Shown here: positions 526 to 34,207 of the stretch, piece after piece
Layout of the letters: each line of letters begins with the position of its first letter
How positions within the stretch are numbered: the stretch's first letter is position 1
IMG/VR virus record: IMGVR_UViG_3300021364_000084
Location: 1-34,315 of that record
DNA length: 34,315 bases
Origin: a virus
Reading direction: 5' to 3' (one strand)
The notes under the pieces: model-generated
The model's input: only the letters and a program-made list of their open reading frames with translations
Database searches by the model: none
What the model was told of the DNA's origin: nothing
Translations under genes and position numbers: made by a program

Positions 526-676
526 GTTGTGCCTTTGTTGAAGTGGGTGGCAGGAGTGGGGTGGGTTGCGCTTCTGCGCTCCTCAATTCCACCTTGACTC
601 CAAGCGTAGCTCATGCTACAGATACAGTCAAGTTGATTGTTCAACTATTTTCACCGAGGCGATAAGGAGCCCAATC
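526..676. promoter_or_regulatory. Divergent early control region with overlapping promoters and operators
   Basis: This 151-bp gene-free stretch separates the leftward and rightward early units. Rightward candidate: TTGACT (594-599), 17-bp spacer, TACAGA (617-622) preceded by TGC, as in an extended -10. Leftward candidate: TTGACT (complement of 626-631), 17-bp spacer, TACGCT (complement of 603-608). The two face each other and overlap. Two inverted repeats lie over them: GTAGC-TCAT-GCTAC at 606-619 and AGTTGA-TTGT-TCAACT at 631-646. The arrangement resembles a lambda-type switch; the HTH protein at 677 is the obvious candidate ligand. The -10 elements match consensus only partly. Confidence 0.5.
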
Positions 677-1117
677 ATGCACCCATCCAAAGCGGATCTC
701 ATCTCTCAATATAGAGGGAAGACTAAGCTCGCAGAAGCAACGAACTGCTCAAGAGCGCATATACATGACATCATCAGAGGGCGGCGCGTGGCTGCCAAAG
801 AGCTCGCCATCACGCTCGCGATAAAGGCGAATGAAGTCTTTAACGTCAACTTCTTCGAGCCTAACGATTTCAACCCTGAGCTGAGCACAGCGCTGAGAAA
901 CCTCCAGCCTGATGTTAAATTCTTAATCACCTACCTTGACTCTAAGGTTGCTCAGTCAATGACCGCTGAGGAGCTGACGCTCGCCAGCCCTGATGACCTC
1001 GAGCTGCTCACCGCCCTCCATGAATGTGTCTGGGACGGACAGCGCCAATTGATCCATCAGGGCTCAACGCTCATTGAGCTCGATGACCATGATCCTGACC
1101 TTGTGGATGTCGACTAA
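677..1117 (+). CDS. Small helix-turn-helix (XRE/Cro-like) regulator
   Basis: A 146-aa protein whose first 45 residues form a helix-turn-helix of Cro/CI type (GKTKLAEATNCSRAHIHDII, then a basic turn RGRR). The C-terminal half is acidic and ends DDHDPDLVDVD. The start at 677 is chosen over an upstream in-frame start at 566 because AAGGAG lies 7 bases before it and the upstream stretch overlaps the promoter region. It is first in a three-gene unit with the initiator and helicase loader, and its stop overlaps the next ATG by one base. It probably binds the inverted repeats just upstream and regulates itself and the leftward unit (inference). No CI-type autoprotease motif is visible. Confidence 0.75.
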   Translation: MHPSKADLISQYRGKTKLAEATNCSRAHIHDIIRGRRVAAKELAITLAIKANEVFNVNFFEPNDFNPELSTALRNLQPDVKFLITYLDSKVAQSMTAEELTLASPDDLELLTALHECVWDGQRQLIHQGSTLIELDDHDPDLVDVD

Positions 1118-1869
1118 TGAAGGAGATCGACGTGAGGCGAGCGATTCACAAGCTTGACCTCAAGCCCAACACCAAGCTGACCCTCTTGGGGATCCTCTGC
1201 TATGTGAAGTGGGATAGCTTCACCGGGCAGGTGAGCGCTAAGGACATCAGCAAAGAGATGAACATCAATGAGCGCTCAGTGAAGCGAGCACTGAAAGAGC
1301 TCATTGACTTAGGGCTATTGACCAGATCAGCCCAACGACGTAACGAGACCCAACATCATCGAGCCATGACCAAAGTCAATGTTGAGCTCATCACTGGGAC
1401 CATTATCACGCGGTCACCCAGTGTCATAAAGACACCCCCTAGTGACATATTGTCACTACCCCCTAGTGACATAGTGACACCCCCTAGTGACATAGTGACA
1501 CCCCCTAGTGACATAGTGCCACTACCCCCTAGTGACATAGTGACACCCCCTAGTGACATATTGCCACTACCCCCTAGTGACATAGTGCCACTACCCCCTA
1601 GTGACATAGTGACACCCAATACAACTAAGGATAACAACAAAGGATATACAACAGAGGTTTCAACAGAGGAGAGCAATGAAGAAGACAACCTCATCAGCTC
1701 GCTCTGTGAGCTTGGGTTGATCCCTGAGAACATTGAGAAGTCAGTTGAGATCCAGATGGGGATTGGCAAGACACGCATTGAGGCTCTGAGGATCCTGCAC
1801 AACATGCAGAAGAAGTATATTGAGAACCAGAGGCGAAAAAAAGTATTAATCAGAGGAGGATTTAAATGA
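1117..1869 (+). CDS. Replication initiator, O-like, with winged-helix domain and internal origin
   Basis: A 250-aa protein. Residues 1-85 form a winged-helix domain (TLLGILCYVKWDSFTGQVSA, ISKEMNINERSVKRALKELI), the type found in phage O-like and plasmid replication initiators. Residues about 100-168 are a proline-rich linker of 7- and 8-residue repeats (PPSDIVT, PPSDIVPL). The last 80 residues are helical and basic and could contact the helicase loader. It starts within the stop of the HTH gene and overlaps the loader gene by ATGA. The linker repeats are encoded by the iterons described separately, so the gene probably contains the origin it acts on, as lambda O does. Family-level call is by architecture and position. 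Confidence 0.75.
   Translation: MKEIDVRRAIHKLDLKPNTKLTLLGILCYVKWDSFTGQVSAKDISKEMNINERSVKRALKELIDLGLLTRSAQRRNETQHHRAMTKVNVELITGTIITRSPSVIKTPPSDILSLPPSDIVTPPSDIVTPPSDIVPLPPSDIVTPPSDILPLPPSDIVPLPPSDIVTPNTTKDNNKGYTTEVSTEESNEEDNLISSLCELGLIPENIEKSVEIQMGIGKTRIEALRILHNMQKKYIENQRRKKVLIRGGFK
1419..1616 (+). repeat. Iteron array inside the initiator gene (candidate replication origin)
   Basis: Eight copies of TAGTGACATA begin at 1440, 1464, 1485, 1506, 1530, 1551, 1575 and 1599, with a degenerate ninth at 1419. Spacings are 24, 21, 21, 24, 21, 24 and 24 bp, close to two helical turns. Each is preceded by CCCCC. Copies at 1464, 1485, 1530 and 1599 continue as a second TAGTGACA in tandem. Copies at 1440, 1506, 1551 and 1575 continue into an inverted TG(T/C)CACTA; the one at 1440 is a perfect palindrome with arms TAGTGACA/TGTCACTA. 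A purine-rich, AT-rich stretch (about 1617-1670) follows. Iterons plus an adjacent AT-rich tract inside an initiator gene is the lambda ori layout. Confidence 0.75.
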
Positions 1870-2795
1870 GCGACTTCACGAGACTTGGCAGCGCCCAAGA
1901 ATGGGATCACATCACTCACAGGCTCATGGAGCTTAAGGCACAGTTTCAGATGAGACAACTCCACAGTCCAAGAGAGGTGAAACAACTAGGTGATTACTCT
2001 CACCTCAATTCAACCAATCTCGAGGATCTGGACTGGATTGACGAAGCAGCTCCAAGGCTCACCATCAAAGAGATTCCTCTCTGCGGTAGATGTGATGATG
2101 GCTGGTTGAGAGTGCAGGATACTCGCAACTGCGTGAAGCTCTGCCACTATTGCGAGCTCCCCAGAAGGCGCGCCAAGCGTCTCAATAAGCTGGAGCTCCC
2201 TGCTGACTCAGTTGGCATGCACCTTGGCCGCTACATCTGGGACAGCCCAGACCAAGAACGGCGCGTCACCTCGATGCTCAATCACCTCAATGGTTCACAG
2301 CGGCTCCCTCATTGCCCCAGCTCCTACCTTTGGGGTCCACCGGGGAACGGCAAAACATCCTTACTTTATTGCTTGGCTCGATGGGGGTCCTTCAACGATT
2401 TGAGGGTTACCTACATAAGCCACACCAACCTCATGAACCAAATCAAGGAAGGCTTCGGGGAAGGCAAGCGGCGTGATCCTCTGCGCGGCTGGCTGGATCG
2501 AACTGACTTGCTGTTGCTCGATGAGCTGGGAGGGCTTGGAGGTCACGCGAATAAAACCGCGTGGTATGTCAGCCAGACCACGGAGATTCTCGGCTCGATC
2601 TATGAGCGGTGGTCAGGAGGTAAGTTGGGTGTGGTGATGACAAGCAACCTCCAGCCTCAGCAGCTCGCCCAAGTATTTGGGCGTAACGTCGCGGCGCTTA
2701 GTCGTCTTCGAGCAATGTTCGGGTCTCCCATCCAGATGACTGGACCTGACCGGAGACAGAGCGCTGATGAGCGGCTAAAGGAATGGGGCCTTTGA
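1866..2795 (+). CDS. DnaC-like AAA+ helicase loader with zinc finger
   Basis: A 309-aa protein. A four-cysteine zinc site (C73, C76, C93, C96: CGRC ... CHYC) precedes an AAA+ ATPase domain with Walker A GPPGNGKTS (157-165), Walker B LLLLDE (215-220) and a sensor-1-like TSN (259-261). This matches the DnaC/DnaI/IstB class that loads replicative helicase onto single-stranded origin DNA. The start follows AGAGGAGG and overlaps the initiator stop by ATGA. Placement directly after the iteron-bearing initiator supports a lambda P-like role. The zinc finger may bind DNA or the initiator. No phage helicase is visible, so the host DnaB is the likely partner (inference). Confidence 0.85.
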   Translation: MSDFTRLGSAQEWDHITHRLMELKAQFQMRQLHSPREVKQLGDYSHLNSTNLEDLDWIDEAAPRLTIKEIPLCGRCDDGWLRVQDTRNCVKLCHYCELPRRRAKRLNKLELPADSVGMHLGRYIWDSPDQERRVTSMLNHLNGSQRLPHCPSSYLWGPPGNGKTSLLYCLARWGSFNDLRVTYISHTNLMNQIKEGFGEGKRRDPLRGWLDRTDLLLLDELGGLGGHANKTAWYVSQTTEILGSIYERWSGGKLGVVMTSNLQPQQLAQVFGRNVAALSRLRAMFGSPIQMTGPDRRQSADERLKEWGL

Positions 2796-2903
2796 CAGAG
2801 CCTCAAGCTTATGCTCTATTGGTTTTGCGCCTCCCTGCCCTAGACCCATAGTCTCTTGAATTGCGTTCACTCTATCATTTCAACCGAGTGGGGAGGCCAC
2901 CCT
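2796..2903. other. Convergent intergenic gap
   Basis: These 108 bp lie between the 3' ends of the helicase loader gene and the leftward gene 2904-3176. I see no gene. A bidirectional terminator would be expected, but only a 6-bp pairing (GCCTCC 2829-2834 with GGAGGC 2892-2897) across a long loop is visible, with no adjacent T-run, so no terminator is called. Confidence 0.4.
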
Positions 2904-3176
2904 TTATCTTGGAGCGTGATAAACCTTAGCGCTCGTAATTCGTCCAGTGATTGAAGCGCGATAATGAATAAGCATTGCTCCTGGATTGATTGTGAAGATC
3001 GAGCGCTCAAAGCTTGATGATCTATAGCAGGGCGCAACATCAACTGAGCCTGTGATGTTTATTTTGAGTTGACCAAAACCCTCAACAAATTCAGAGGTCA
3101 TTAACGTGACCTCATGGTGAGGGTCAACAAGCTCGAGCTCAATTGGAACTTCATGAGCAGTGAAAAGGACATTCAT
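2904..3176 (-). CDS. 90-aa leftward protein, unknown function
   Basis: A small protein starting MNVLFTAHEVPIELELVD, with predicted beta strands in the N-terminal half and a positively charged C-terminus (ITGRITSAKVYHAPR). The start at 3176 is favoured over an upstream frame because GGAGAGGAG lies just before it, and because upstream codons would run through the palindromic operator and the next gene. It is the only leftward gene between two rightward units, transcribed away from the RHH/SSB unit. It could be a small regulator or a host-directed protein. No family is recognised. Confidence 0.6.
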   Translation of the reverse strand: MNVLFTAHEVPIELELVDPHHEVTLMTSEFVEGFGQLKINITGSVDVAPCYRSSSFERSIFTINPGAMLIHYRASITGRITSAKVYHAPR

Positions 3177-3310
3177 ATTCTCTCCTCTCCTTGTGTTTAT
3201 TGTTATACATATGTATAACAAAAATTGAAGTGGGTTAATGAGGAGTTGACCTGAATGGGCGGGGGGGCTGGGTGCTGCCTCCTCGCCTTTTCTTTTTTCG
3301 GGAGAAAAGC
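3177..3310. promoter_or_regulatory. Divergent promoter region with 22-bp perfect palindrome
   Basis: A perfect palindrome at 3200-3221 has arms TTGTTATACAT and ATGTATAACAA with no spacer. It is AT-rich in a GC-moderate genome and carries a TATAAC -10-like hexamer on each strand (3214-3219 rightward; complement of 3202-3207 leftward). A TTGTGT at 3191-3196 is 17 bp from the rightward hexamer. A dimeric repressor here could control both the leftward 90-aa gene and the start of the long rightward unit. The ribbon-helix-helix protein encoded next and the HTH protein at 677 are candidate ligands. Confidence 0.55.
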
Positions 3311-3508
3311 ATGAGCGGCAAAAGTCAAACGATAGCCTTGAGGGTGACCCCCAATGAACACAGCTTCGTTGCCAATGAGGCCAAGAAATTCGGCTGCACA
3401 AGCTCAGCGCTTATCAGAGCACTCATCAAGATCCACTTCGACTCACGAAAGAATCAAGGCGATTTAGCACAGCGCGTTGAGCGCTATCTGGAGGCACCAC
3501 ATGACTAG
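3311..3508 (+). CDS. Ribbon-helix-helix (CopG/Arc-like) DNA-binding protein
   Basis: A 65-aa protein with a beta strand (QTIALRVTPNE) followed by two helices (HSFVANEAKKFGCTSSALIR, ALIKIHFDSR), the shape of the ribbon-helix-helix fold, which dimerises and binds palindromic operators. The start at 3311 follows GGGAGA; an upstream in-frame start at 3272 adds a non-conserved Pro/Arg/Phe-rich leader and is not preferred. It overlaps the SSB start by 8 bp. The palindrome at 3200-3221, 90 bp upstream, is a natural target, so autoregulation is likely (inference). Confidence 0.7.
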   Translation: MSGKSQTIALRVTPNEHSFVANEAKKFGCTSSALIRALIKIHFDSRKNQGDLAQRVERYLEAPHD

Positions 3509-3884
3509 TAGTATTAACAAGATCTGTCTCATTGGGAATCTGGGCAAAGATGCCGAGATGCGACAAACGACCGGCGGCGCTTCATATTGCCACTTCTCGA
3601 TGGCGACATCAGAGCGGCGCAAACAAGGAGAGCAGTGGATTGAGGAGACCGAGTGGCACACAATCAAGGTCTGGGGCAAGTCGGCCCCAAGGGCAGCAGA
3701 GCTGAAGAAGGGTGGCTCAGTTTACGTTGAGGGTCGATTGTCCTCCTATGAAGTCAATGGTCAACGGCGGTGGGAGGTCATCGCTTATTGCTGGAAAAAT
3801 CTGACAGCCAAGAGTGATCACCTCCTCCCTCCTGATCCCCCTCAGCGAAGCGCTTGGAGTGCCACACCAGGAGGATGGTCATGA
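3501..3884 (+). CDS. ssb: Single-stranded DNA-binding protein
   Basis: A 127-aa OB-fold SSB. Typical features are the N-terminal NKICLIGNLGKDAEMR strand, the TEWHTIKVWGKSAPRAAEL segment and GGSVYVEGRLSSYEVNG. The start at 3501 is preferred over 3477 because homologues begin a few residues before the first strand. The C-terminus is short and ends SAWSATPGGWS; the acidic DDDIPF-type tip that recruits host repair and replication proteins is absent. It overlaps the RHH gene by 8 bp and the next gene by ATGA. It should act with the RecT-like protein and the replication proteins. Confidence 0.9.
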   Translation: MTSSINKICLIGNLGKDAEMRQTTGGASYCHFSMATSERRKQGEQWIEETEWHTIKVWGKSAPRAAELKKGGSVYVEGRLSSYEVNGQRRWEVIAYCWKNLTAKSDHLLPPDPPQRSAWSATPGGWS

Positions 3885-4099
3885 GTGAACGTTATGAGCG
3901 CAAGGTACTGGAGCGCCTCGAGGAGCTCTTGGTGCTTAATGCCAGAGATCATGGTGACTACCTAAGTGAGCAAAGCCGGGATCTGCTCGATAGAATCAGA
4001 GAAGTCCTCAATGCTGAGGAGGCCATATATAAAAAAGAAAATGTTACCCACAACGCGCGCGCGCGCGCGCAAGGGGGCCAAGATGGCGATCAAGGCTGA
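3881..4099 (+). CDS. 72-aa helical protein, unknown function
   Basis: A small charged helical protein (MSERYERKVLERLEELLVLN) translated after AGGAGG and overlapping the SSB stop by ATGA. The C-terminal 18 residues are encoded across a run of 17 alternating C and G bases (4054-4070), giving the odd NARARAQGGQDGDQG tail. The gene overlaps the terminase small subunit start by 17 bp. No family is recognised; the position suggests a replication or packaging accessory. Confidence 0.6.
   Translation: MSERYERKVLERLEELLVLNARDHGDYLSEQSRDLLDRIREVLNAEEAIYKKENVTHNARARAQGGQDGDQG
4054..4070. repeat. (CG) dinucleotide run
   Basis: Seventeen alternating C/G bases near the 3' end of the 72-aa gene and 13 bp before the small terminase start. 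Alternating CG can adopt Z-DNA and is prone to slippage, so the C-terminal frame of the 72-aa protein could vary between genomes. Confidence 0.8.
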
Positions 4100-4493
4100 A
4101 GCAAAAGAGCAGCTCCTCGAGGCGCTCAAAGAAGGCGCCACCATTGAAGGAGCTTGCGCTTGGGCCGGCATCGCTAAGCAAACTTATTACCGCTGGTGTA
4201 AGACTGACCCTGAGTGGGCTGACCTCAGTGAGCGCGCCATGAACTTTGCTGAGGTCATCTTGCTTCGGCAACTCAAAAGAGCCGCTGAAGATAAGATGGG
4301 AGATTGGAGAGGAACCGCTTGGATTCTTGAACGGCGGTGGGCTGAGCGATGGGGGGCGCGTCAAGAGGTCCAGCTCAACCATAACCAAGCAAACGACGGC
4401 GGCGCGTCTATGGTCATGGCGATGATTTTACAAACTGACGAGAGAGTTAAACAATTAGAGAAGGAGAAGGAAAGTGATGATGAAGACGTATGA
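4083..4493 (+). CDS. Terminase small subunit candidate
   Basis: A 136-aa protein. Residues about 8-40 form a helix-turn-helix (EALKEGATIEGACAWAGIAK, QTYYRWCKTDPEW) of the kind seen in phage terminase small subunits. A middle helix (SERAMNFAEVILLRQLKRAA) and WILERRW follow; the C-terminal KQLEKEKESDDEDV is acidic and could contact the large subunit. The start at 4083 follows AAGGGGG. It lies two short genes upstream of the large terminase, the usual order. It would recognise the packaging site and start packaging. Confidence 0.75.
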   Translation: MAIKAEAKEQLLEALKEGATIEGACAWAGIAKQTYYRWCKTDPEWADLSERAMNFAEVILLRQLKRAAEDKMGDWRGTAWILERRWAERWGARQEVQLNHNQANDGGASMVMAMILQTDERVKQLEKEKESDDEDV

Positions 4494-4680
4494 CACCACC
4501 AAGATCAACGCGGCTCCTGTTCTCGCTCGATGGGCGTTTCAAGATAGGAACCTAGTGAAGCTCTTGAAGCTGAGAGCTGATAAAGGCGGCGCTGGCGCTG
4601 AGCTCGCTGAGGAGCTGCACAATGTTTATAGAAAACGCCTCGAGGAGCTTGAGGCGATGATCACCAAGAGGTCAAAGTGA
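4474..4680 (+). CDS. Small helical protein between terminase subunits
   Basis: About 66-68 aa, depending on start (GTG 4474, ATG 4477 or ATG 4480; AAGGAGAAGG lies just upstream). The protein is a predicted helical hairpin (NLVKLLKLRADKGGAGAELA, then YRKRLEELEAMITKRSK). It overlaps the small terminase gene by up to 20 bp and the following gene by 1-4 bp, so translation is probably coupled. No family is recognised; a packaging accessory role is inferred from location only. Confidence 0.55.
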   Translation: MMMKTYDTTKINAAPVLARWAFQDRNLVKLLKLRADKGGAGAELAEELHNVYRKRLEELEAMITKRSK

Positions 4681-4940
4681 TGGTTCAAATTTGCCTAATG
4701 CGTGAGTGGTCGATGCTTCATCACTTATTTAGTGCTACCTATGAGATTGAGGGTGATTGGGTCAAGGTCGCTGAGGAGAGTCAAGATCATGGTTGGCAGC
4801 GCTCCACAGTGGACATCATCAACGCTGAGGTTGGCGCGACTGTTCACAAGCACACCACTGATAAGGACGGGCGCAAAAACACCACAATCTGGCGCGTGAC
4901 TGAGGAAGGCCTTAAGCTATGGGAGAACCAAGAGAGCTAA
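4677..4940 (+). CDS. 87-aa protein with winged-helix-like pattern
   Basis: It starts at GTG 4677 or ATG 4680, overlapping the upstream stop. The sequence has helices and a beta-hairpin pattern ending TTIWRVTEEGLKLW, reminiscent of a small winged-helix DNA-binding domain. It overlaps the large terminase start by 22 bp. It may be another packaging-site binding factor. No firm family assignment. Confidence 0.55.
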   Translation: MMVQICLMREWSMLHHLFSATYEIEGDWVKVAEESQDHGWQRSTVDIINAEVGATVHKHTTDKDGRKNTTIWRVTEEGLKLWENQES

Positions 4941-6307
4941 GCCTCAACCCACTCCAGCAAGACCTCATCGCGAGGATCAGAAGACAAGATAGAATCATCG
5001 CGGCTCGATGTGGTTGGGGAGCTGGCAAGACTTCAGCGCTAGTATTCAGCATCCTCTTTATTTCCAAGTGGCGCGCCGGGAGCTCCAGCTTACTGGTGAC
5101 CGACACCAACCCCAGATACAACTCTGTGTTGATGCCTGAGATGGAAAAATGGTTGTCGCCATTGGGCTGGACCTATAACCACTCTCTGAGGCAGTGGCTA
5201 GACCCAACCACAGGCTCAACGGTGTGGTGTCGCTCTTACTTTCGACCCGGCACAAGGGACGCAACCCATAACCCGCTTGAGGGTTTGAATATCACCTCTG
5301 GCTGCTGTCTCATCGACGAGTGCCAGACGCTCACCGCTGAGGTGGCGCATAAAGCGCTTGGTCGTCTGCGCTCAGGTCCATCTCCCATCATGATCCTTGT
5401 GGGCCTTCCTGTGGCTGACGCTTGGTGGTGTGCTATGGCTGAGGGCGCTGGGCTATCACCTCTGCTCTTCACCTCATACGTCAACAAGGCCCATCTCTCT
5501 GACGAGTGGTTTGAGGCTACTGAGCTGCTCCCTAAAGAAGAGCGTGAAGCCATGGTGATGAATAAGCCGCGTCCACCAAGCGGCTTGGTCTATTCAGAGT
5601 TTGACGTTGATACGATGGTGATTGATGATTGGGAGTACTCGCCAGAGATGAGCGCGAGGATTGCTATTGACTGGGGATTCAGAAAGCCATCAGTGCTCAT
5701 CCTCGCTCATGATGAACGGTTAGGCGCTGATGTGATCTGTGCTGAGCTGAACCCCAATGAGGTCACCATTGAGCAGCTAGCCTTAATGATCCTCGCTATT
5801 GCTTGGCCGCGCTCGATTCAGGACCAAGCGCCAGCGCCTCGCATATGGCTTGATGAGGGTTGCGCTGACAAAGCCGGCAAAGCTCGCAACGACCAAACCG
5901 GCGCTTCAGCATTTCGAGCAATGCGAGCAGCTCCCCCCAAAGGTTTAGGGATCCCGTTGAGGTCAACCACTGATCCAATCAGAACCGATATTCTCAACGG
6001 GGTGCAGAAGCTCAAGCGAGCATTCACGCGGCGTCAATATCTCATCACTCGTGAAGTCTGGGACGCTGGCGAACGCTCACCGGGCAACTCAATCAGGAAG
6101 GCGCTGCTCTCTTATCAGTGGGAGCGAACCAAAGAACAGCCTAAGAAGGATGGGCGAGAAGACCCACTTGACGCGCTCAGATATGATTGCATCATGTGGC
6201 GATGGGCAGATGATTCCACAGTGGACCGGCGCAAGTATCAACCCAGAGCCTCACCGCGATCAAGAAAGGTCAGGGTTGGAGGCGCTAGAGCAAGAGGGAA
6301 CTTTTAA
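4919..6307 (+). CDS. terL: Terminase large subunit
   Basis: A 462-aa packaging motor. The ATPase domain has Walker A CGWGAGKTS (31-39), Walker B CCLIDE (129-134, catalytic E134) and a coupling-motif-like MILVGLPV (158-165). The RNase H-like nuclease domain has acidic residues D251 (IAIDWGF), D312 (WLDEG) and D416/D419 (EDPLDALRYD). Length and motif order are complete. The start is supported by GAGGAAGG upstream. The adjacent TTG-started cyclase gene follows with no gap. Headful or cos packaging cannot be decided from sequence alone. Confidence 0.93.
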   Translation: MGEPRELSLNPLQQDLIARIRRQDRIIAARCGWGAGKTSALVFSILFISKWRAGSSSLLVTDTNPRYNSVLMPEMEKWLSPLGWTYNHSLRQWLDPTTGSTVWCRSYFRPGTRDATHNPLEGLNITSGCCLIDECQTLTAEVAHKALGRLRSGPSPIMILVGLPVADAWWCAMAEGAGLSPLLFTSYVNKAHLSDEWFEATELLPKEEREAMVMNKPRPPSGLVYSEFDVDTMVIDDWEYSPEMSARIAIDWGFRKPSVLILAHDERLGADVICAELNPNEVTIEQLALMILAIAWPRSIQDQAPAPRIWLDEGCADKAGKARNDQTGASAFRAMRAAPPKGLGIPLRSTTDPIRTDILNGVQKLKRAFTRRQYLITREVWDAGERSPGNSIRKALLSYQWERTKEQPKKDGREDPLDALRYDCIMWRWADDSTVDRRKYQPRASPRSRKVRVGGARARGNF

Positions 6308-7084
6308 TTGCTGAGAGAGTCAGAGCAATATAAAGAGCGGTCGCTCACAATTGTGCTTTTAGACTTGGTCAACTCAACTGGCTTTGTTGAGACCGCTGGC
6401 GCTCAACGTGCAGCGCGATGGTTTCAGTATCACGACCGGCTGACGCGCTCCCTTCTCTATCGCTTCAGCGGCCGAGAGATCGACAGGTCAGACGGGTTCC
6501 TCTTTACGTTTGATCTAGCTCATGAGGCGCTCAGCTTCGCGCTTTATTACCAGCAGACGATTCCCCAGAAGATCCACATTAAAGCAAGAATTGGGATTCA
6601 TTATGGCTGTGTTGTTGAGGTGCATCAAATTGAGCTTTTGGTATTGGTGGGAGCGAAGCCCATTGAGGTGGAGGGCTTGTCAAAGAATATCGCGGCGAGG
6701 ATCATGAGCTTGGCTCAACCCGGTCAGGTCTTGCTGAGCGCGCCAGCTTTTGAGCGCGTCAAGAACAGGTCCAACGGGATGACCCCAAAAGGGACGCGCT
6801 ATGCTTGCGTGGGGCTTTATCGTCTACAGGGAGTGAAAGAGCCTCAGGTTATTTATGCCGCCGGCTTACATATCAAAACACTTCAGCCACCACCATCAAC
6901 CGCCAAGGTCAAGAGGTTGGGCGGCCCAAGAAAGGTCAGGTCTCGAATGAGGCACAAATCATTTTTAGAGTGGTCTGAATTTATACTCCTCTTTTTATTT
7001 TGGTTAGCATTGGGCTATCTGGCCGTGCATATGTGGCCATACATTAAATTTAAATTCTGGGAGTGGTGGAATGAACAACGATGA
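6308..7084 (+). CDS. Class III nucleotidyl cyclase with C-terminal membrane anchor
   Basis: A 258-aa protein. Residues 12-187 follow the class III adenylyl/guanylyl cyclase homology domain: LTIVLLDLVNSTGF (metal D19), GREIDRSDGFLFTF (metal D62), KARIGIHYG (92-100), GLSKNIAARI (transition-state N127 and R131) and YRLQGVKEPQVIY. The usual substrate-selecting Lys and Asp positions appear replaced (a DRSD segment before D62; E120 seven residues before N127), so the base used is uncertain. A basic linker (195-220) leads to one membrane helix at about 225-243, then an aromatic tail, giving a tail-anchored cytosolic enzyme. It starts with TTG right after the terminase stop; AGAGGG is upstream. It overlaps the two-TM gene by 14 bp. 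Cyclases in this location are not part of standard phage head modules. Confidence 0.82.
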   Translation: MLRESEQYKERSLTIVLLDLVNSTGFVETAGAQRAARWFQYHDRLTRSLLYRFSGREIDRSDGFLFTFDLAHEALSFALYYQQTIPQKIHIKARIGIHYGCVVEVHQIELLVLVGAKPIEVEGLSKNIAARIMSLAQPGQVLLSAPAFERVKNRSNGMTPKGTRYACVGLYRLQGVKEPQVIYAAGLHIKTLQPPPSTAKVKRLGGPRKVRSRMRHKSFLEWSEFILLFLFWLALGYLAVHMWPYIKFKFWEWWNEQR

Positions 7085-7514
7085 GGAGAAGAAGACAAAG
7101 CGCGGCTGGTGGTTCTCTGTAATCTTTATGGGTTTGGTGATGGGCCTGATTATCTTTTTGGCTCGCGTGGAAATAATTGAAAAAAATAGAGATGTGCTCA
7201 TTGGAATCTTGGGGATGATTACGGGTTCAATCTCCTCAATGCTCGCTATTGCCAGCGGTCGAGATCCAGCTGAGGTTGATGAGCTCAGGGGAGAGGTGGG
7301 CAAGCTTAACGCTGACAGGGCGGCGCTCATCGCTCGCCTCAGAGATGCTAATATTCAGCTTCAACTGAAGAATGATCACTTGCTGGAATTACAGCTGGCG
7401 ATGATCAAGGCGCTCACCAAGCTAGAGGTGAATTTTGTTTCAGAAGAGGTTGAGCTTCATGAGCAGGTCAAGGAGTGGTTACCTTCTGTTGAAAAAAAAG
7501 AAGAAAACGGTTAG
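7071..7514 (+). CDS. Two-TM coiled-coil membrane protein
   Basis: A 147-aa protein with a charged N-terminus, TM1 at about 13-31 (WWFSVIFMGLVMGLIIFLA), a short basic/acidic turn (EIIEKNRD), TM2 at about 42-62 (VLIGILGMITGSISSMLAIA), then a coiled coil (68-115) and an acidic, Lys-rich tail. N- and C-termini are predicted cytosolic. The start overlaps the cyclase gene by 14 bp, so the two are probably translated together. The hairpin resembles small holin-like or exclusion proteins. It is too short for a classical cyclic-nucleotide-binding domain. It could be an effector, partner or scaffold of the cyclase; a second holin is another reading. Confidence 0.7.
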   Translation: MNNDEEKKTKRGWWFSVIFMGLVMGLIIFLARVEIIEKNRDVLIGILGMITGSISSMLAIASGRDPAEVDELRGEVGKLNADRAALIARLRDANIQLQLKNDHLLELQLAMIKALTKLEVNFVSEEVELHEQVKEWLPSVEKKEENG

Positions 7515-32218: not shown

Positions 32219-32585
32219 TGGCCTTCCTGTTTCGGGACTTAAGCATATACTCCCTGTGACGCTTGCGAAACACCTCGAGCTCTTCTTCACTCATTCTGGC
32301 GCGGCGCTTGCGTTGATACTCGCGCTGATACTCTCGACGTCGAGCGCGATGATCCTCGAGCTGCTCAGGGGTCATCTTGGCTAGGCGCCTTTGTCTGTAC
32401 TCGCGTTGCTTTTCGCTAAAAGCAAGTCGCTCCTCTGGAGACATGGCGGCATATCTGGCGCGATTAAACGCCCTGACCTCAGCCTTCTCCTCTTCGGTCA
32501 TATTGGCTCTGACTCGCCTTGAGTACTCGCGATACCTGGCGAGCGTTGCCGCTCTCTTCTCTTCGGGTGTCTTAGGTTCGGTCAT
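32205..32585 (-). CDS. Arg/Glu-rich helical-repeat protein, short paralog
   Basis: A 126-aa protein, the middle paralog. Units start MTEEE, MSPEE, MTPEQ and MSEEE and are 19, 23 and 27 residues long. The 4-residue steps look like added helical turns. A 49-bp segment (32274-32322) matches 32695-32743 in the upstream paralog with one mismatch. The start at 32585 is chosen because upstream codons would lie in the previous gene; the overlap is then 14 bp. There is no cysteine cluster. Confidence 0.6.
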   Translation of the reverse strand: MTEPKTPEEKRAATLARYREYSRRVRANMTEEEKAEVRAFNRARYAAMSPEERLAFSEKQREYRQRRLAKMTPEQLEDHRARRREYQREYQRKRRARMSEEELEVFRKRHREYMLKSRNRKANDQG

Positions 32586-33069
32586 TGGTCTTGGCTTTAC
32601 GTTCGCGATAGTATTGGCGCAGATACTCTCGCCGTGCTTCTCGTTGCTCTTCTGTCTTTTCACGGTGGTACCGGCGCTGCTTTTCGCGCCGCGCCTCGAG
32701 CTCTTCTTCACTCATCCTGGCGCGGCGCTTGCGTTGATACTCGCGCCATGCTTCCCGTTGCTCTCCTGTCTTTTCACGGTGGTACCGGCGCTGCTTTTCG
32801 CGCCGCGCCTCGAGCTGTTCTTCAGTCATGCTTGCACGGTACTTCCGTTGGTACTCGCGCCGCGCCTCTCGCTGTTCTTCAGTCATGTTTGCATAGCGCA
32901 AACGTGCTCTTTCATTATAGCGCGCTCGCTCCTCTGGAGACATAAGGGACCATCGAAGACGATTAAACGCCCTCACCTCTGCCCTTTCCTCTTCGGTCAT
33001 ATTGGCTCTGACTTGCCTTGAGTACTCGCGTTTTTTGGCGAGCGCTGCCGCTCTCTTCTCTTCGGTCAT
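32572..33069 (-). CDS. Arg/Glu-rich helical-repeat protein with seven 19-residue units
   Basis: A 165-aa protein, first of the three paralogs and 7 bp after the RecT-like stop. After a 23-residue lead, seven consecutive units are exactly 19 residues long, each starting (M/K)(T/S)xE and having the form MTEEQREARREYQRKYRAS. The period predicts a long, strongly charged helical rod or stacked helical hairpins. At DNA level a 51-bp exact repeat (32652-32702 and 32766-32816) is spaced by 114 bp, two units. It could coat or bridge DNA or RNA, perhaps with RecT or SSB (inference). Confidence 0.65.
   Translation of the reverse strand: MTEEKRAAALAKKREYSRQVRANMTEEERAEVRAFNRLRWSLMSPEERARYNERARLRYANMTEEQREARREYQRKYRASMTEEQLEARREKQRRYHREKTGEQREAWREYQRKRRARMSEEELEARREKQRRYHREKTEEQREARREYLRQYYRERKAKTNDRT
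32652..32816 (-). repeat. 51-bp exact direct repeats, 114-bp period
   Basis: Positions 32652-32702 and 32766-32816 are identical. The spacing equals two 57-bp (19-codon) units of the repeat protein, showing recent unit-pair duplication. Confidence 0.85.
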
Positions 33070-33076
33070 TTGTCTT

Positions 33077-34207
33077 TCAGCCGTGGAGCTTGTCTCCATC
33101 GAGTAACGACTGGACATAATCGTAGGCGCTCCAGTCGACCGGGCTCATCTGCTTGAGCACTTCAATTGCCTTCTCCCGTCGCTCCTTCAGCTTGATGCTT
33201 TGGGCCAAGCGCAGAGTCTCCATCCACGCTCCATGAGACATTCTTGGGCCAAACCACTTGGGGAGCATATACTTGAGGATGCTGAACTGGTCATAGAGGT
33301 TCTGATGATAGGTTTTGACTTGATCCATAGTGCCAGTGAACCAGTCGTTTGGAATGCTGGCGTCTCTCATTGATCGAGCGGCCAAGCGTGAGTAGAAGAG
33401 CGCCTCTTTTTGCTCTGGCGTTAATGATGTGGGAGAGTCCACCATATGAGCGATCAACTCAACGGCGTCACTCAGCTCAAGGCCCCATCCCTTGAGCGCC
33501 TTTTGCCACCCATCTTCCGTGCTGAAATCATAGAGCCGATTGGGCTCCTGCTGAGGCTGCTGTTGCTGCTGAGGCTGCTGTTGCTGTGGCCGTGGAGCTG
33601 CTGAGCGCTGTGGCCGTGGAGCTGCTGAGCGCTGTGGCTGTGGAGCGGCTGAAGGGGGAGCCTCACCGATAGCTTGAGCCACCACGCGCTCTCTCTCTTG
33701 GTCACTGAGGTTTGAGTTTTCTGCAATCTCATCAGCGCCATAAATGCCGCTGACCGCGTCAGGGAACACAGCTCGAAGCGCCATCGTTACGACGCGACTC
33801 CTCAGCATCTGCATAGGCATTTTCTTCCAGGTGTGGCCGCGCTGAGTCAGCCCCATTTGGTTTGCCATATCAATGGTGAAGGTGAACTCATGCACAACCT
33901 CTTCAGGCTCATCAGTTCGAGCGGTCTTGAGTGTGCAGTGGGTCGCGTCCCAAGAGGTCACCTGAATATAGCGACAGAGCCCAGAGCGCCTCACGATGCC
34001 GGCCATAGGATCAGCGCCAAGGGTGGGCTTCCCTTGGATTACTGATCCCTGTTCAGAGAGCATCCCAAGCTCACCGTCAAAGTGATGGCCAAAAGCTGCA
34101 TGGAGGATAATGAGTTCATGGGTCTTTCGCTGATCATTGTTGGCGAGGAGTGAGGCCATATTAATCGCCTCTTGTACATTTGCGGGATTCCAGATAGTTT
34201 GTTTCAT
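33077..34207 (-). CDS. RecT-like annealing protein with extra C-terminal domain
   Basis: A 376-aa protein. Residues 1-165 show the RecT-type single-strand annealing core: FTIDMANQMGLTQRG, then WKKMPMQMLRSRVVTMALRA and VFPDAVSGIYGADEIAEN. Residues 184-222 are a linker of SAAPRPQR repeats and a Gln-rich stretch. Residues 225-376 are a separate helical domain (DGWQKALKGWGLELSDAVEL ... DWSAYDYVQSLLDGDK) not usual for RecT. AAAGGCACA precedes the start. It should anneal complementary strands during replication and recombination, with SSB. No exonuclease partner is visible. Confidence 0.75.
   Translation of the reverse strand: MKQTIWNPANVQEAINMASLLANNDQRKTHELIILHAAFGHHFDGELGMLSEQGSVIQGKPTLGADPMAGIVRRSGLCRYIQVTSWDATHCTLKTARTDEPEEVVHEFTFTIDMANQMGLTQRGHTWKKMPMQMLRSRVVTMALRAVFPDAVSGIYGADEIAENSNLSDQERERVVAQAIGEAPPSAAPQPQRSAAPRPQRSAAPRPQQQQPQQQQQPQQEPNRLYDFSTEDGWQKALKGWGLELSDAVELIAHMVDSPTSLTPEQKEALFYSRLAARSMRDASIPNDWFTGTMDQVKTYHQNLYDQFSILKYMLPKWFGPRMSHGAWMETLRLAQSIKLKERREKAIEVLKQMSPVDWSAYDYVQSLLDGDKLHG
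33584..33655 (-). repeat. 24-bp tandem repeats encoding SAAPRPQR linker
   Basis: Two identical 24-bp units (33584-33607 and 33608-33631) and a diverged third, next to a CTG-rich stretch encoding the poly-Gln part. The length of this linker is probably variable between related phages. Confidence 0.7.

Follow-up and report, generated by a model that had tools for sequence, protein, structure and literature searches.

A Putative Lambda-Like Replication Origin Within the Initiator Gene of an Uncultivated Phage

A tandem array of repeats is found inside the replication initiator gene of a phage genome from IMG/VR (record IMGVR_UViG_3300021364_000084), whose 34,315 bases are referred to here as the window. 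Judged from the sequence, this array is proposed to be the phage's theta-type replication origin, located within the gene of its own initiator. The initiator would bind the repeats, the adjacent AT-rich tract would melt, and DnaC-like loading would follow; a probability of roughly 0.85 is given to this reading. The comparison of arrays rests on three distinct types, namely that of the window and contig L002, that of contigs L003 and L015, and that of contig L017. The features of the locus are listed in Table 1.

Table 1. Coordinates of the initiator locus and of its repeat array in the window.
Feature	Position	Strand	Evidence or description
ORF, 183 aa, possible HTH protein; left edge of the exchanged block	566..1117	+	Weak phrog_925 HTH match, E 0.0043
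Replication initiator gene, 250 aa	1117..1869	+	HTH_36 2.2e-7; phrog_270/428/391 replication initiation, 2e-10 to 7e-8
Iteron array, 1 degenerate + 8 copies of TAGTGACATA(G/T)TG(A/C/T)CAC, 21 or 24 bp period	1420..1617	+	GTGACA half-sites in two frames
Perfect inverted repeat (first copy), 19 bp, 8-3-8, TAGTGACA-TAT-TGTCACTA	1440..1458	+	Arm comparison
AT-rich, purine-rich tract, candidate unwinding element	1618..1670	+	GC 0.37-0.38, AT skew 0.47-0.62
DnaC-like AAA+ helicase loader, 309 aa	1866..2795	+	phrog_50 1.4e-22; IstB_IS21 2.2e-9, Bac_DnaA
Single-strand DNA-binding protein gene, same replication region	3477..3884	+	PF00436 2e-25

Structure of the Repeat Array

A preliminary description of this DNA had reported eight iterons and a degenerate ninth, spaced 21 or 24 bp apart, and the exact counts and coordinates agree with it. 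When the whole window was counted, eight exact copies of the 10-mer TAGTGACATA were found, all on the + strand within 1440-1608, with none on the - strand and none outside the array. They start at 1440, 1464, 1485, 1506, 1530, 1551, 1575, and 1599, which gives successive spacings of 24, 21, 21, 24, 21, 24, and 24 bp, and the degenerate copy, AGTGTCATAAAGACAC, starts at 1420. As had also been described, the repeats double as codons for PPSDIV(T/PL). They are in frame with the initiator gene, and the fuller form of the encoded peptide is PPSDI(V/L)(T, PL or SL).

Although the copies of the 10-mer are real, it is only part of the natural unit. A better unit is the half-site GTGACA within GTGACA-N3-TGNCAC, and this hexamer is read in two frames, as Ser-Asp in (A)GT-GAC-A and as Val-Thr in GTG-ACA. 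The array contains 12 copies of GTGACA plus one TGTCAC, and all copies of the unit fit GTGACA-TA(G/T)-TG(T/A/C)CAC, in which two half-sites face each other with 3 bases between them. Within GTGACA-N3-TGNCAC at least five of the six possible pairs are formed in all eight units. When the arms were compared over 8 positions, one unit matched at 8/8, three at 7/8, and four at only 5/8; in 4 of the 8 units the second half-site is near-direct instead of a clean inverted copy. On the opposite strand, an open frame of 209 codons runs antisense across the array (1356-1985), and it is probably a by-product of the stop-free repeats.

The Initiator Gene and Its Surroundings

AlphaFold segments divide the initiator into a winged helix (residues ~1-95), a disordered repeat linker (~97-183), and a C-terminal helical domain (184-247). 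Overall the quality of the model is low (mean pLDDT 60): the N-terminal winged helix is ordered, confidence is low from residue 89 to 183 (array and AT tract), and the C-terminal helices are confident. The array encodes part of the predicted disordered linker between the DNA-binding and C-terminal domains. Among the family matches, the name of phrog_270 is weak on its own because 10 of 14 control genomes match it too, and the 'O-like' phrog_391 match is restricted to the winged helix. The HTH_36 initiator gene adjoins the helicase loader gene, as in HTH_36-type phage replication initiators. A PDB sequence search returned only a designed protein and noise, and the MarR-like winged helices returned by Foldseek (E above 0.009) are too weak as matches for more than the term 'winged helix'. 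The start of the loader gene overlaps the initiator stop codon, and the gene order is initiator, loader, SSB.

An AT-rich, purine-rich tract followed by the loader gene had been described, and both are borne out by instability, AT skew, and the phrog_50 match. Nearest-neighbor energy places positions 1606-1665 among the 0.3% of the window with the lowest stability; three stretches, at 3171, 6953, and 1808, are still less stable. The loader gene begins ~60 codons beyond the tract. An unstable tract was also found beside the array in L002, L003, L015, and L017. GC skew had been suggested as a check for an origin near 1.5 kb, and no turning point was seen there along the window.

An array of initiator binding sites could also serve autoregulation or copy control, as an operator or by titration, with the strands not being opened there. 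What the sequence data indicate is a binding-site array rather than initiation, and elsewhere iteron arrays are known to titrate and handcuff initiators, as in lambda plasmids (PMC3349717). However, the array lies mid-gene, with the start codon ~300 bp before it, which is a long way from where a promoter would be expected, and no sigma-70-like promoter was found near it. Moreover, an unstable AT tract abuts the array in all three array types. A purely regulatory array is therefore considered improbable, and an origin is the preferred reading.

Other genes of the window were noted in passing. Positions 6308-7084 (+) encode a protein that resembles class III nucleotidyl cyclases (PF00211 8.3e-5; PADLOC PycC 5.4e-5) and has a hydrophobic segment in its C-terminal part. 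Its gene is overlapped by a second one (7071-7514, +), for a small protein that has two hydrophobic segments and matches SLATT weakly. Flanked by the terminase and portal genes, this pair (6308-7514) may be a phage-borne Pycsar-like cassette. A RecT-like protein, assigned by eye, is encoded at 33077-34207 (-), at the right end of the window. In the contigs of L015 (86%) and L017 (38%), its homologues are located immediately upstream of the initiator gene; the map of the window is therefore probably circularly permuted, with its two ends joining. An Arg/Glu-rich protein (32572-33117, -) is made from 57/114-bp tandem repeats (MTEEQ.EARRE units), and a similar repeat protein was found at L017 6285-6596.

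Codon Choice and Half-Site Excess

Codons that are rare in 14 other genes of the window predominate in the array. Ile is encoded by ATA in 9 of 9 cases (6% in the other genes), Ser by AGT in 9 of 10 (9%), and Leu by CTA in 4 of 6 (5%). Relative codon adaptiveness is 0.44 in the array, compared with 0.74-0.78 in the two parts of the gene on either side of it and in the loader. When the same peptide was re-coded synonymously 5,000 times, GTGAC/GTCAC occurred 2.9 times on average and at most 7 times, compared with 13 occurrences observed in the window. The half-site count was above all 5,000 synonymous re-codings in each of four arrays, which represent two types.

The near-invariance of synonymous sites in the repeats had been taken to point to selection on DNA rather than on protein. 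Taken alone, this observation is not decisive: invariant synonymous sites in one array are no proof of selection on DNA, as identical copies are also produced by tandem duplication. A half-site that is kept under different peptides and in different frames, however, could not come from recent duplication alone, and it is the relatives that decide between DNA and peptide.

Relatives and the Exchanged Block

L002 (IMG/VR 3300006919) carries the same initiator type as the window and has ten units, one of them mutated; the number of full units is 8 in the window and 10 in L002. A different situation is seen in L003 (3300023116). This contig is 98-100% identical to the window at 561-1100 (60-nt bins) and 97% identical over the 3.8 kb from 1677 to 5472, whereas the sequence from 1117 to ~1680 has been replaced, with 26-73% identity (60-base bins). 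The replacement took in the winged helix together with the repeats and the AT tract, and left the C-terminal domain and the loader in place. The L003 repeats encode VTHSHSDTMSPL and relatives of VTHSHSDTMSPL, not PPSDIV. Their DNA contains GTGAC/GTCAC 16 times, in more than one frame, compared with 4.5 expected and a maximum of 10 in 5,000 re-codings. The recognition regions of the two winged helices are alike (INERSVKRALKEL and INDRAIKRALKEL), which fits a common half-site.

The second array type is also found in L015 (3300025771), and in both contigs GTGACA is read in two frames. Between L003 and L015, 1 of 80 half-site positions has changed, compared with 11 of 154 other positions, and 15 of 16 half-sites are common to both. 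In the array, 1 synonymous and 8 nonsynonymous codon changes were counted; elsewhere in the gene the numbers are 18 and 12 (Fisher p 0.02). Selection on DNA, as claimed in the preliminary description, is supported by this pair. The opposite pattern, in which the peptide repeats are kept and the codons vary freely, is contradicted, as the peptide of L003 and L015 has been replaced and the DNA half-site kept.

L017 belongs to a more distant phage, whose loader is 48% identical to that of the window. At the same place it contains a third in-gene array (TTECGQEV, 24-bp period, TGACAACA-GAA-TGTGGTCA), and the AT-rich tract that follows this array is less stable than any other part of the L017 locus. 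Further searches added little to these contigs. The exact 15-mer pattern was found among viral contigs in L008, which is the same contig as L002, and otherwise as single occurrences in seven contigs. A search of genome contigs gave one weak match (34%), tblastn of annotated phages with the initiator and loader gave no relatives, and the loader and winged-helix alignments as queries gave no further contigs.

These comparisons bear on the idea that the array is a proline-rich linker newly expanded by tandem duplication, its DNA identity being a by-product with no function at the DNA level. The copies are near-identical, and the difference between 8 and 10 full units in the window and L002 is what slippage or unequal exchange predicts. 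However, rare codons run all through the array, and L003 and L015 keep the half-site in two frames under another peptide, with nonsynonymous changes predominating in their array. Together with the different array at the same place in L017, this makes an expanded linker very unlikely. Even less credible is an RNA or single-strand hairpin element for translation control or primer structure: folding of the arrays is indeed stronger than that of shuffled sequences (z -6.5 and -8.0), but this is non-discriminating because any inverted-repeat array must fold, while two unalignable arrays have common half-site letters and differ in pairing partners and spacings, and 4 of the 8 units pair at only 5/8 positions.

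Within the origin reading, it is fairly probable that a stretch of ~560 bp, made up of winged helix, iterons, and AT tract, holds both the specificity of the initiator and the origin as one self-contained cassette. Phages in nature would exchange this cassette precisely, its borders being the start codon and the point where the AT tract ends. In that case the linker would in effect be a translated DNA element, with the same half-site in two frames.

Proposed Mechanism and Significance

The analysis establishes the anatomy of the locus, the codon-level half-site excess, the cassette exchange, and the family assignments; initiator binding, tract melting, loader recruitment, and origin activity are proposed on top of these. 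Initiator dimers would bind the GTGACA-N3-TGNCAC units via the N-terminal winged helix, and the bound initiators would assemble on the tandem array. This assembly may strain the adjacent AT-rich, purine-asymmetric tract and lead to its melting. Through its C-terminal helical domain the initiator would draw in the DnaC-like loader, the product of the adjacent gene, and this loader would in turn bring the host DnaB helicase. The domain, iterons, and AT tract pass between phages as one cassette. Under this scheme the role of the array as DNA must take precedence over its role as linker peptide; it would therefore encode a disordered linker whose amino acids are of little importance.

With such an origin, the lambda-type self-contained plan would also cover uncultivated phages in which the initiator domain is a different one and the loader is DnaC-type. 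The window and L003 amount to a natural experiment, in which binding domain and iterons have been replaced jointly in nearly identical surroundings, and they offer clean comparative evidence for in-gene repeats conserved as DNA. The half-site excess over synonymous re-coding in initiator linkers is suggested as a quick origin finder for phage contigs. The natural cassette swap and the two-frame reading make a good teaching case, although they are no surprise.

Comparison With Known Systems

In phage lambda, inverted-repeat iterons in gene O are bound by O dimers, which go on to melt the neighboring AT tract and to bring in P and DnaB. By analogy, these steps are most likely taken here too, with the DnaC-like loader in place of P. 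The preliminary description had seen the same plan as in lambda ori, which holds for the architecture but not for the protein families. In lambda gene O/ori-lambda (J02459 39034-39160), the origin likewise lies mid-gene between the DNA-binding and C-terminal parts. It consists of tandem ~19-bp imperfect inverted repeats, of which iteron 3 is ATCCCTCA-AAT-TGGGGGAT (8-3-8), with an AT/purine-rich tract 3' of the repeats and a loader gene that overlaps the end of the initiator gene. Conversely, the lambda O domain is Phage_rep_O (PF04492), whereas the window protein is HTH_36 without PF04492. The lambda loader is P-type (PF06992), whereas that of the window is IstB/AAA, phrog_50, and DnaC-like, without PF06992. 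Lambda has four iterons, unrelated in sequence to those of the window, and because these are read in different frames lambda O is without a peptide repeat. Specificity exchange in lambda hybrids is an old theme, reportedly treated by Furth and Yates in 1978.

The binding unit of lambda O is a 19-bp imperfect inverted repeat (PMC7466680). Lambda, P22, and L each carry their own iterons inside their initiator genes (PMC8022706). In the phage L genome paper, the repeats of P22 gene 18 and L gene 18 were found to differ, and each protein was proposed to bind the iterons of its own gene (PMC8022706). These proposed origins resemble the present case in having differing repeats in distantly related initiator genes; however, the repeats are others, and the next gene encodes a DnaB-type helicase, not a loader (PMC8022706). 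In Stx phages the count of in-gene iterons changes in frame, and the protein is longer where there are more of them (4 vs 6, with 13 extra residues), which is comparable to 8 in the window and 10 in L002, although their O protein and iterons are of the lambda type (PMC7466680). The principle of an origin with iterons inside the initiator gene is already known from lambda and has been proposed for P22 and L, and the sequence described here is new. The best reading is that the array would work like ori-lambda, within an HTH_36/DnaC-type replication module and with new iterons.
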